Below are positions 17,178 to 20,846 of a DNA stretch of 64,000 bases, piece by piece. This DNA comes from Candidatus Saccharimonadales bacterium (GTDB lineage Bacteria; Patescibacteriota; Saccharimonadia; Saccharimonadales; Saccharimonadaceae), in contig DATHGB010000010.1 in assembly GCA_035317825.1 (NCBI GenBank), forward strand, positions 1 through 64,000, written 5' to 3'. Within the stretch, counting starts at the first letter, position 1; each line of letters opens with the position of its first letter. The notes beneath the pieces were generated by a model. That model had not been told where the DNA came from and ran no database searches. It saw only the letters and a program-made list of their open reading frames with translations. Both the position numbers and the translations under genes were made by a program.

Positions 17178-18233
17178 TTATTTAAGAATACTTGTATCTG
17201 GATCGTTCTCGTCGCGGTCAGCACTTGGACTTTGGCCCTGAGGCTTCTTTGATCCGCCGCCAGAGTTTACTTCGTAACTGGTGTTGGTACTTTCAAAGAA
17301 GTTTACGAGTTCAAGCGTGTCGTTAGCCGTTGCCATCCATTTTGCCGGGTTACTCACTTTGTAGTGCGCGTCAAAACCAAGTTCTTCAAGACGGCGGTCA
17401 GCTAGGTATTTCACATACTGGTTTATGTAATCGCTGTTGAGGCCCAGGATACCGTTTGGCAAAAGGTCTTTGTTGTAGGCTTCTTCCATTTCAACGCCAT
17501 CAAGGATCATTTGCTTGATTTCATTAGCAAATTCTTCAGTTTGAAGATCTTCGTTTTCTTCAAGTACCGTAAGGATGAGGTTTATGCCAAACTTAAGGTG
17601 CAGGCTTTCATCTCGGACAACCCAGTCAATGAGTGAACCGAAGTTGCGCAGCAGGTTTCGCTGGCGGAATGAGAGTGCCACCATGAATCCGCTATAGAAC
17701 CAGATTCCCTCAAGGATGATGTTATAGGCAACGAGGTTACGGACAAAATCTTTTTTGCCTTCGGTCGTCGTAATATCAAGCGTCTGTTCGGTCATGCGCT
17801 TAATAAACTTGGTTTCGAACTCTTCTTTTCGCGCCATCGATGGCGTATCAACATGTGCTGAATAAGCAGTGCCCCGGTCAATCGGGAAGGTTTCAAGCAC
17901 GTACTCAAAACTCATACAGTGGTTAGCTTCTTCCCACATCTGCTTGGCTAGGTACAAGTGACACTCGGCCGCGTTGACGTATGGGTACACGCCAAATGCG
18001 AGTGCTTTATTCACGAGTAGCTCGTTCGGGTTAAAGTAGCTCATCAAAAACGTCAACGCGTGGCGTTCTTCGTCGCTCATCTTTTTCCAGTCGGCGAGGT
18101 CCTGGCTTAACTGGATTTCGTTTGGAAACCATGTGTTTGATACGGCTTGGTCATAAAGATCCATCGCCCATTGGTAATGAATCGGCTTGAGGAGCAGTCC
18201 GTCCTGAATACCTGTTCCTAAAATTCCTGACAT
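17178..18233 (-). CDS. nrdB: Ribonucleotide reductase beta subunit, class Ic-like
   Basis: 351 residues. It is the ferritin-like radical-generating subunit of class I ribonucleotide reductase. Metal ligands by position: Glu71, Glu102, His105, Glu175, Glu209 and His212. Two substitutions mark the chlamydial class Ic type: Glu71 where class Ia has Asp, and Phe109 (NHCMSFEYV) where class Ia has the radical Tyr; Tyr111 matches the Ic Phe-x-Tyr pattern. So an Mn/Fe cofactor is inferred rather than a tyrosyl radical. The C-terminus is long and flexible with acidic residues, as needed for docking to NrdA. AGGAG precedes the ATG and the 59-residue gene ends 10 nt upstream. Confidence 0.93.
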   Translation of the reverse strand: MSGILGTGIQDGLLLKPIHYQWAMDLYDQAVSNTWFPNEIQLSQDLADWKKMSDEERHALTFLMSYFNPNELLVNKALAFGVYPYVNAAECHLYLAKQMWEEANHCMSFEYVLETFPIDRGTAYSAHVDTPSMARKEEFETKFIKRMTEQTLDITTTEGKKDFVRNLVAYNIILEGIWFYSGFMVALSFRQRNLLRNFGSLIDWVVRDESLHLKFGINLILTVLEENEDLQTEEFANEIKQMILDGVEMEEAYNKDLLPNGILGLNSDYINQYVKYLADRRLEELGFDAHYKVSNPAKWMATANDTLELVNFFESTNTSYEVNSGGGSKKPQGQSPSADRDENDPDTSILK

Positions 18234-18243
18234 AGTTTCTCCT

Positions 18244-18423
18244 TTATTGACAGCCTTCGCACATGGTCAGATCAGCTGGATCGATTGGTGCGGCAGTAGT
18301 ACCATTTGCTTTGGCTTCGTCATTTGCTTGTTCTTGTGCGTTTTTCATTGCTAGTTCGATGGCTTCTAGTTTTTGCTCTAGTGTCATGTCGTCGTTGATG
18401 ATTGTGCTTGCGTTCATACCCAT
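18244..18423 (-). CDS. 59-residue protein ending in Cys-x-x-Cys, between nrdA and nrdB
   Basis: An unnoticed-looking small gene: ATG at 18423 behind AGGGGG (8-nt spacing), 59 codons and TAA. It starts MGMNASTIINDDMTLEQ, has a charged helical middle and ends with MCEGCQ at the very C-terminus. nrdA ends 23 nt upstream and nrdB begins 10 nt downstream, so all three are one operon. Known NrdA proteins carry such a Cys pair on a swinging C-terminal tail to re-reduce the active site, and the NrdA here has no Cys in its last 250 or more residues. I infer that this protein supplies the redox pair in trans; not tested. Confidence 0.85.
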   Translation of the reverse strand: MGMNASTIINDDMTLEQKLEAIELAMKNAQEQANDEAKANGTTAAPIDPADLTMCEGCQ

Positions 18424-18446
18424 TGTTTTATCCCCCTAATTTCTTT

Positions 18447-20846
18447 CTATGCTACTTGTTTTGCTTTAGCGAATCCGAATCCTGCTTTTCGTGGTCCGGC
18501 GCCGGTTTCGGCTTTGTTTACCTTGACCGTACTTTGCTCGGCCTGATGCCGCGGTTTGACGTGTAGGTAATACGTTGTCTTGAGCCCCTTCTTCCATGCC
18601 GTACTGTAGATATCCACGTACTCGTCAATATCACGGGTTTCAAGATACATGTTTCGTGAAATCGCTTGGTCAACCCACTTTTGTGCGCGGGCTGCGACTT
18701 CGATAAAGGCATACGGACTCAGCTGGAAACTTGTTTTGTATACGTCTTTGATGTGCTGCGGAATAACGTCGATCTGCTGGACATCACCTTGCAGACGAAG
18801 TACGTCTTCTTTGACCGTGTCCCAAAGGCCAATCGCTTTTAGGTCATTCACTAAGTTGCCGTTCACTTCAAGGAATTTGCCGTTTAACGTTGCGCGGCTG
18901 AAAATCTGCGCGAACTGCGGGTCGATACCCGGAGTCGTACCGGCAACGTGCGCGATGTTAGCCGTTGGAGCGATTGCCATAAGAGTTGCGTTACGCATAC
19001 CTTTTTTGACTTTAGCGCGAAGCTTTTCCCAGTCAAGGCGAGTCTTACGGTTAATCTCAACCTTTACTTTACGGTCAGCAGCTAACTGGTCAAGCGTATC
19101 GAATGGCAAAATACCCTTGCTCCAGCCGCTTCCCTTGAACGTTGGGTAGCTGCCGCGGGTCTTTGACATATCTGCTGATTCATCGATTGCCTGGTAGCTA
19201 ATGAACTCAGTCAACTGGTCCATTAGGTCATAGGCCTCTTCGGATTCATAGCTGTAACTTAGCTTTTCGATAACGTCGGTAAAGCCCATCATGCCAAGGC
19301 CAAGCGCACGGTTTTGCTGGTTAGAGTGCATTGCTTCTGGAATTGGCGTATTAGTGATATCGCACAGGTTATCAAGCTGGCGAATTGCGCTGCGGGTACT
19401 TGCGGCTAGGCGGTCCCAGTCCCATGTCTTGTCTTCATTAAGGTGCGCTGACAAGTTAATACTAACGAGGTTGCAGACTGCCGTATTGTCTTTGTCCTGG
19501 GGCAACGTAATCTCAGTACAAAGGTTTGAAAGGTGGATCGTACTGGTGTTATTGTTGAGCGCACGAACGTTGATCGTATCTTTCCACGTTAGCCATGGGT
19601 GGCTAGTTGCCTGCAACGTAATCAGGATCTGGCGGAATTGTTCACGGGCTTTTAGCTTAGTAAACTCACGCATTTTTCCAGCTTCAGCCAGTTTAACGTA
19701 TTCTTTATACTTAGCGGAAAATTCTTCGCCGTAAAGTTCTGGCAGGTCAGATACTTCAGCTGGATCAAACAAATACCAGTCTTGGTCCTTTGATACGCGC
19801 TTCATGAACTCGTCACTAATAAATACGGCGGTATTTGCGAGTCGCGTACGAAGGTACGGGTCACCCGAGTTTTGTTTCAAGTCCAAAAACTGTGGGAAGT
19901 TCAGATGCCAGTTTTCCATGTAAAGCGCGGCTGCGCCAGCTTTTTTACCCTTACGGCTAACGGCAAATAGCGCGGTGTCGATCATCTTCATGAAAGGAAT
20001 CGGGCCGGTTGATTCAGTGTTCGTCGTTTTAACCGGACTACCTGCTGCACGAAGCTTATTTAGGCTGATCCCAATACCGCCGGTGCCTTTGGCGATCCAC
20101 ATGACATCGCGAATACCCTTGGCGATTGCTTCCATGTCGTCCTGGACTTCAATAAGGAAACAGTTCGAAAGCTGCGGGAACGAACCGCCTGCGTTCACGC
20201 GGGTTGAACCACCAGGAACGTAGTTCAGGTTACTCATGTGCTTGTAAAAATCAATTGCAGCGGCCGTTGGATCTTCTTCGTTAAAACTTAGACCCATAGC
20301 AATACGCATGTGCGTAAACTGTGGAACTTCAATCGGTGCCCCACTTTGTTTACGAAGCGCGTAACGGTTTTTGTTAGTAACGACACCCAGGTATTTACTT
20401 AGGTGGTCACGGCTTGGGTCGAGCGCTTTCGCTAGTTTCTTAATATCAAAGATTTTCGTGCTCATTCGCGTATCGAGTAGGCCGTCGGTGATACCTTGCT
20501 TGATATATTCAGGAAACTTTTGCTCGTGCAGCTTTTTGAGCTCAACGTCCGTTTCGTAGTCGCCCAAGATATTCTTGTAGACGTTCTTAAGCAAAAGCCG
20601 TGCCGCGATCTTGTCAAAGTCAGGATCGTCTTTGACGTTTTGAAGCGCCGTGTGAATGACAGCTTCGTCAAGTTGTTCTGATGTAATACCATCAAATAAT
20701 GTTAACTGTAATTCGGTCGCGACTTGAACAACCTTACTGATTTGATCAGGTAGTCCTTCACTTGCTGCAACTAACGCCAAGTTGATTTTATTGGCGTCAA
20801 ATGGTTCGCGGGTGCCATCTCGCTTTACCACATTGATAGTACTCAT
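18447..20846 (-). CDS. nrdA: Ribonucleotide reductase alpha (catalytic) subunit
   Basis: 799 residues. It reduces ribonucleotides to deoxyribonucleotides. An N-terminal ATP-cone (VVKRDGTREPFDANKINLAL, residues 6-25 on) allows dATP control. Active-site residues by motif: Cys229 (QLSNCFLI), Asn441, Cys443 and Glu445 (SNLCTEI), Cys458 (NTAVCNLVSINL), the ATLMAIAPTANIAH loop, and the radical-transfer Tyr pair at 759-760 (TTYYLHVKP). The tail after that is Lys/Gly/Ala-rich with no Cys, unlike usual NrdA. It heads the operon nrdA-small gene-nrdB and is controlled by the promoter and NrdR-like boxes at 20985-21038. Confidence 0.95.
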   Translation of the reverse strand: MSTINVVKRDGTREPFDANKINLALVAASEGLPDQISKVVQVATELQLTLFDGITSEQLDEAVIHTALQNVKDDPDFDKIAARLLLKNVYKNILGDYETDVELKKLHEQKFPEYIKQGITDGLLDTRMSTKIFDIKKLAKALDPSRDHLSKYLGVVTNKNRYALRKQSGAPIEVPQFTHMRIAMGLSFNEEDPTAAAIDFYKHMSNLNYVPGGSTRVNAGGSFPQLSNCFLIEVQDDMEAIAKGIRDVMWIAKGTGGIGISLNKLRAAGSPVKTTNTESTGPIPFMKMIDTALFAVSRKGKKAGAAALYMENWHLNFPQFLDLKQNSGDPYLRTRLANTAVFISDEFMKRVSKDQDWYLFDPAEVSDLPELYGEEFSAKYKEYVKLAEAGKMREFTKLKAREQFRQILITLQATSHPWLTWKDTINVRALNNNTSTIHLSNLCTEITLPQDKDNTAVCNLVSINLSAHLNEDKTWDWDRLAASTRSAIRQLDNLCDITNTPIPEAMHSNQQNRALGLGMMGFTDVIEKLSYSYESEEAYDLMDQLTEFISYQAIDESADMSKTRGSYPTFKGSGWSKGILPFDTLDQLAADRKVKVEINRKTRLDWEKLRAKVKKGMRNATLMAIAPTANIAHVAGTTPGIDPQFAQIFSRATLNGKFLEVNGNLVNDLKAIGLWDTVKEDVLRLQGDVQQIDVIPQHIKDVYKTSFQLSPYAFIEVAARAQKWVDQAISRNMYLETRDIDEYVDIYSTAWKKGLKTTYYLHVKPRHQAEQSTVKVNKAETGAGPRKAGFGFAKAKQVA

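Follow-up and report, generated by a model that had tools for sequence, protein, structure and literature searches.

Can the catalytic subunit of a class I ribonucleotide reductase (RNR), the enzyme that makes the building blocks of DNA, work with a redox tail that is encoded by a different gene? In ordinary class I enzymes, such as those of E. coli and P. aeruginosa, NrdA carries its own flexible C-terminal Cys pair, which reduces the active site and is in turn recharged by glutaredoxin or thioredoxin; this tail is among the features that define class I RNRs, and it is essential to them. The question is raised by the nrdA–nrdB locus in a 64,000-nucleotide stretch of DNA (hereafter, the window) from a Saccharimonadales bacterium, a representative of the Saccharibacteria, a large group of very small bacteria with a parasitic way of life. 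An initial annotation of this locus, made from the sequence alone, had proposed that the tail was split off from NrdA and survives as a small gene between nrdA and nrdB.

The reductase of the window and its missing cysteine pair

The window's NrdA (Table 1) matches PF03477, PF00317 and PF02867 above the respective cut-offs (the ATP cone, the all-alpha N-terminal domain and the barrel), its active-site residues Cys229, Cys443 and Cys458 align with those of the P. aeruginosa enzyme (5im3), and the tyrosine pair of the radical path is kept (TTYYL). What it does not have is a C-terminal redox pair. The last Cys is at position 495, so that the final 304 of the 799 residues are Cys-free, in agreement with the original statement that none occurs in the last 250 or more, and the pair is likewise absent from every NrdA of the window's clade that was examined. 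The best NCBIfam model, NF005101, comprises 822 positions; its match to the window's NrdA stops at position 793, leaving 29 further C-terminal positions unmatched, and the protein itself breaks off close to where the linker begins (GFGFAK...).

In NrdB, the position of the radical Tyr is occupied by Phe, with the metal ligands kept (EEANHCMSF aligned with EEAVHTHTF of Chlamydia NrdB 1syy). As this subunit is nearest to the class Ic subunit of Chlamydia and has Phe at the radical-Tyr position, we classify the reductase, by its sequence, as a class Ic-like RNR; in the absence of metal analysis a Mn/Fe cofactor can at most be inferred. The enzyme is probably essential, because its NrdA is the only PF02867-type RNR detected in the window's genome (96.5% complete).

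Table 1. Location of the features discussed in the text (coordinates without a locus prefix refer to the window)
Feature	Location	Strand	Description	Basis
nrdA	18447..20846	-	class I RNR catalytic subunit, 799 aa	Pfam/NCBIfam; alignment to P. aeruginosa NrdA 5im3; Cys positions
nrdB	17178..18233	-	radical-generating subunit, class Ic-like by sequence	closest solved chains Chlamydia NrdB 1syy/4d8f
NrdA redox tail gene, separately encoded	18244..18423	-	59-codon ORF	conserved in relatives and phages; dN/dS 0.12
Shine-Dalgarno-like AGGGGG of the tail gene	18432..18437	-	9-14 nt ahead of the ATG	sequence
N-terminal segment, residues 15-39	18307..18381	-	predicted long helix, proposed docking part	AlphaFold2; docking inferred
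C-terminal motif DPADLTMCEGCQ	18247..18282	-	invariant CxxC pair	conservation; same motif fused in relatives
C55 codon of CxxC	18259-18261	-		
C58 codon of CxxC	18250-18252	-		
Tail frame in G378 (family f48)	L138:3973-4188	+	71 codons, directly after nrdB	
f39 tail gene	L249:2947-3057, also L251-L260	- (L249)	ends ...CPIDPKELAECEACQ	conserved, apart from nrdAB
Phage tail genes (examples)	L227:6001-6165; L234:6001-6174			
Phage glutaredoxin gene	L234:6364-6591			
Glutaredoxin gene of the window's genome	L250:1411-1698			
Phage tRNA arrays	L234:2326-5870; L235:3883-5956		22 and 20 tRNAs	

A conserved small gene between nrdA and nrdB

The initial annotation had described a 59-codon frame with a good Shine-Dalgarno sequence, ending in MCEGCQ and lying between the two reductase genes. 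Both the ORF and an AGGGGG ahead of its ATG were confirmed, and the reported spacings, 23 nt from nrdA and 10 nt to nrdB, are exact by the gene coordinates. The encoded protein is MGMNASTIINDDMTLEQKLEAIELAMKNAQEQANDEAKANGTTAAPIDPADLTMCEGCQ. As most homologues start with MNA..., which corresponds to residue 3 here, the actual product may be 57 rather than 59 residues long.

Searching 101 sampled genomes of the same family by tblastn recovered the small protein in 47 of them, and NrdA of the window type occurs in nearly the same genome set. An alignment of 24 diverse homologues, diverged members included, has four invariant positions (D48, P49, C55 and C58), both cysteines of the CxxC pair being unchanged in every aligned homologue; the median dN/dS is ∼0.12 (188 pairs), with every pair below 1. 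The small gene is therefore a real, conserved gene and not a chance ORF. An upstream Shine-Dalgarno-like sequence is found in 71 of 73 homologous loci. The protein gave only sub-threshold matches to Pfam and NCBIfam models and no match to a Pfam redoxin; a weak PHROG match (phrog_14482, E 1e-4) covers the N-terminal segment only.

Co-occurrence with tail-less NrdA and gene order

A comparison of NrdA C-termini, combined with a search for the small gene across Saccharibacteria as the initial annotation had suggested, revealed that a tail-less NrdA of the window type is accompanied by the small gene in each of the 49 sampled loci. Its absence from related operons, which would have refuted the proposed split, was not found in this sample. 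In 47 of the 49 fetched loci the gene lies alongside nrdA; the other two loci lie at the end of a contig, and their small gene is found on a different contig. What would be expected of a trans-acting RNR redox subunit by kind, namely a separate gene with a CxxC end that always goes with a tail-less catalytic subunit, is met throughout this set. A wider scan of GTDB species genomes yielded 74 loci, nearly all titled Saccharibacteria or Saccharimonadia, the remainder being generic Patescibacteria or 'bacterium' bins, oral TM7 single cells and one Chloroflexi-labelled bin.

That Saccharibacterial genomes are reduced and that tiny ORFs are often spurious might suggest a fragmentary or decaying RNR, with the small gene as a relic or an unrelated CxxC micro-protein. 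This reading is contradicted by the conservation (a low dN/dS and complete co-occurrence), by the status of the enzyme as the only PF02867 RNR detected in the window's genome, probably an essential one, and by the retention of tail genes after repeated splits (see below); we consider it practically untenable.

Among the 71 loci holding all three genes, the order is nrdA–small gene–nrdB in 50, and in the other 21 the small gene follows nrdB, at times after other genes. Its frame and distance relative to nrdA vary freely. The location directly downstream of nrdA in most loci, sometimes in frame and with only a few codons between, leaves room for the idea that there is no true action in trans because a programmed frameshift, stop read-through or protein ligation unites NrdA with its tail. 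We rejected such a fusion in view of the varying frame, distance and gene order and of the gene's occurrence alone in phages; the ribosome-binding-like site preceding the gene in nearly all loci and a tail gene located far from nrdAB in another family (∼66 kb in one genome, see below) also speak against any joining, which is left with only a very slight chance.

Fused tails in relatives and the origin of the split

Nearly all other Patescibacterial class I NrdAs that were examined end in CxxC. The closest of the intact relatives are the NrdA of genome G468, 58% identical to that of the window's clade, with the fused tail ...ACPIDPQERLQCDSCQ (against AAPIDPADLTMCEGCQ in the small protein), and the NrdA of G278, 53% identical, with the fused tail ...ACPVDPQERLNCESCQ. 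Both tails match the profile of the small protein even when the fixed Cys and Gln positions are excluded (p ∼5e-6 for G468 and ∼1e-5 for G278). An intermediate between the fused and separate forms was found in G566, a genome of the same class, where a tail-less NrdA of the window type is followed by a 54-residue gene ending in ACPIDPAERALCDSCQ, identical to the fused G468 tail at 13 of 16 positions. Taken with the complete co-occurrence described above, the presence of the same motif at the C-terminus of the nearest intact relatives supports the original proposal that the redox tail has been split off from NrdA.

The more distant fused tails (of the CxIxDPxCEACQ type) showed no match to the small-protein profile beyond the cysteines, and for this reason we claim homology of the tails by sequence only for the near clade and for family f39 (see below). 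The small protein's N-terminal helix has no detectable counterpart in the fused NrdA tails, which implies that it was either added or evolved fast.

A maximum-likelihood tree of NrdA, built by a quick method, nests the split clade inside fused clades, with G468 and G278 as its successive sisters (starred support). By parsimony, the fused form is the ancestral state. Three changes of state are required on this tree, and three separate splits within Patescibacteria are the simplest reading of them.

Independent splits in other Patescibacteria

Splitting was observed again in two other families. In G378 (family f48), NrdA ends without Cys and a 71-codon frame directly after nrdB ends in DPNLNVCESCQ; in its sister species, DPNLNICESCQ is fused to NrdA. 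In G473 (family f39, which belongs to the same class), NrdA also ends without Cys, and no tail gene occurs near nrdAB. Since the split hypothesis requires one, a tail gene elsewhere in this genome was predicted; a scan of the DNA for the pattern C[DE]xC[QE]-stop then located a single genomic site, a 36-codon ORF MPDKKAQKNSIADSDWDKPMVCPIDPEELKECEACQ ∼66 kb from nrdAB. Homologues of this ORF form a conserved tail gene, present in 10 of 13 f39 genomes, with frames of 32-36 codons as counted from the first Met; of the 12 f39 genomes in which NrdA was found, 11 encode a tail-less form. The sister family f161 retains a fused CSILDPDCEACQ. We interpret the f39 gene, from these sequence comparisons, as a second, independent split. 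The f39 tail is preceded only by a short acidic/aromatic segment (DDDWDKP), so any docking in this family must differ from that of the Saccharibacterial tail.

Three f39 genomes with tail-less NrdA (G541, G542 and G544) yielded no tail gene when one was sought; a pattern match in G541 is not a tail gene. A fragmented f39 MAG (G549, L264) combines an NrdA with a fused CxxC tail and two separate copies of the small gene, and is possibly a mixed MAG. It is the only instance of what the initial annotation had regarded as refuting evidence, a relative that keeps its own Cys tail next to a separate gene. The expectation that no such relative exists holds for the Saccharibacterial clade and fails only in this f39 case, which concerns an independently split gene.

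Tail genes on phage contigs

Fifteen IMG/VR viral contigs (L226-L240) encode the small protein with its N-terminal segment and CxxC pair; they form nine groups that share no substantial nucleotide sequence with one another. Genes for terminase, endolysin, primase and polynucleotide kinase were identified in the viral contigs tested. Scanning all 15 whole viral records revealed no PF02867 RNR large subunit, and a viral scan with NrdA itself, of the kind that had revealed the tail genes, found no contig encoding a relative of this NrdA; some of the contigs are fragments, so absence is not established for every one of them. In L234, a glutaredoxin gene starts ∼0.2 kb downstream of the tail gene, and its product shares 54% identity over 67 residues with the only glutaredoxin detected in the window's genome, where no PF00085 thioredoxin was found above threshold. 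Arrays of tRNA genes end just before the tail gene in L234 and in L235.

We think it likely that the RNR tail is an exchangeable micro-subunit, split about three times in Patescibacteria (and reduced to 32-36 residues in one family), which phages of Saccharibacteria captured alone, once together with a glutaredoxin, as a means of accelerating or taking over the host RNR during infection. It would then be an auxiliary metabolic gene that consists of nothing more than a fragment of an enzyme. The function of the phage copies is an inference in either direction and, with no detectable large subunit on the phage records, these copies could instead act as decoys, competing with the host tail or drawing electrons away from glutaredoxin. 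We hold this to be unlikely: the Cys pair and the docking segment are intact in the phage copies, and the neighboring glutaredoxin and tRNA arrays suggest a supply to replication.

Proposed mechanism

In our reading, which we regard as highly probable, the small protein is a trans-acting redox tail subunit of the class Ic-like RNR that is separate from NrdA and docks via its N-terminal helix; electron transfer in trans, the docking site and the electron donor are all inferred, without biochemistry. Each turnover would leave an active-site disulfide (Cys229/Cys458) in need of reduction, and the 57-59-residue protein would supply a CxxC in trans to the tail-less NrdA. Its conserved N-terminal segment (MNAxxIIxDDMTLEEKLAAIDxAM, a predicted helix) most likely mediates docking on NrdA; beyond a variable linker, the last residues, DPADLTMCEGCQ, could then swing into the active site. 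Glutaredoxin, most likely the single one detected in the host, would reduce the CxxC, which would pass the electrons on to the active-site disulfide.

In an AlphaFold2 model of the small protein alone (31 homologues), residues 15-39 form a helix (pLDDT ∼86-89) that is followed by a linker and then by a short helix (residues 49-53), with the end predicted less reliably. Phage copies, too, conserve the segment of the long helix. When NrdA and the tail were modelled as one read-through chain (10 rows), the pLDDT was only 42, too low for the model to be of use. Action in trans and docking on NrdA remain an inference, made much more likely by phages that carry the tail alone, and this analysis cannot separate a diffusing shuttle from a stably bound subunit. 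In yeast R1 the C-terminus acts in trans on the active site of the neighboring monomer, so a tail can reduce the active site of another chain, although the yeast tail is still part of the R1 chain.

A small, mostly helical protein with its own conserved N-terminal segment, unseen in fused tails and carried alone by phages, might also bind NrdA as a regulator or inhibitor (as Sml1 does in yeast) or as an assembly factor, with the active site reduced otherwise, for example directly by a redoxin. It is the CxxC motif, however, that is the most conserved part, and this same motif is absent from NrdA and fused to it in relatives; moreover, the second family keeps only a 32-36-residue tail, too short to leave much space for a regulatory domain. 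We therefore view such a role as very improbable and retain the assignment as a redox tail. That the small protein supplies the pair in trans is most likely also because the redox role of C-terminal Cys pairs is established in class I RNRs (PMC5704485, PMC4390871).

Comparison with known systems

A redox subunit acting in trans has a precedent in the split class II RNR of P. aeruginosa, where NrdJa and NrdJb are encoded by adjacent genes and NrdJb, needed in vivo, mediates the disulfide exchange in trans (PMC4520616; PMC5704485); the 2015 paper on it stated that no other split RNR had been found outside viruses (PMC4520616). In both systems the catalytic subunit and the C-terminal part responsible for thiol-disulfide exchange are separately encoded. 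On the other hand, NrdJb belongs to a class II (B12) enzyme and is a 229-residue protein equivalent to the Cys-rich zinc-binding domain, which has 150-220 residues and six conserved cysteines, four of them for zinc (PMC5704485). These features are not met by the present class I protein of 57-59 residues, a bare tail with a helix and a single CxxC contributing its only two cysteines.

Other rearrangements are known in class I. The nrdA gene of Aeromonas phage Aeh1 is split into nrdA-a and nrdA-b by insertion of a homing endonuclease (PMC3653736), so that there too NrdA comes in two pieces and still works, but this is a single phage case and not a separable, conserved tail gene. Facklamia ignava has a glutaredoxin-NrdB fusion (PMC6187632); the electron-delivery part is rearranged in both organisms, by fusing on an external reductant in Facklamia and by splitting off the internal tail here.

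Compared with the tail of an ordinary class I NrdA, the Saccharibacterial tail likewise has a Cys pair at the extreme C-terminus on a flexible linker, but it is not covalently attached: a gene of its own encodes it, and an N-terminal helix has been added. Nor does it resemble glutaredoxin, thioredoxin or NrdH, as it is not a thioredoxin fold with an N-terminal CxxC but a predicted helix followed by a tail with the CxxC at its C-terminal end. The open-licence literature searched for a split class I tail, for the RNR of Saccharibacteria and for phage-borne tails yielded nothing beyond the class II and phage split-gene cases. On this basis, what seems new here is the class I RNR tail as a separate gene, its occurrence on phages being the newest part.

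A tail that is separate, repeatedly split and acquired by phages appears able to work as a diffusible or docked subunit. It also suggests that dNTP supply could be controlled through the dose of host or phage tails. Such a natural two-part system would allow measurement of tail docking, swing and recharging by redoxins, steps that are hard to separate in a one-chain enzyme. For the window's organism, with only one detected RNR of this type, the interaction is unusual and probably essential. From the viewpoint of annotation, tail genes of 32-59 residues are easily missed, and NrdA would then look incomplete.

Gene neighborhoods and other reductases in the family

The order nrdA-nrdB-x-tail is found in loci L085, L090, L099-L102, L104, L148 and L149; inspection by eye, without a profile search, often places such loci near genes for a pyridoxamine-oxidase-like protein, a glucose-6-phosphate dehydrogenase-like protein and CTP synthase. 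A Chloroflexi-labelled public MAG (L222, SEAL01000031.1) has a Saccharibacterial nrdA-tail-nrdB arrangement that groups with the window's family, and is probably mislabelled. Some family members without this NrdA (L111-L114) have an RNR of ∼940-1000 residues ending in CxxCG...CHICELCGTTSGCS, looking like a class II enzyme with a Cys-rich end, and genome G033 has both an RNR of this size and an NrdA of the window type.
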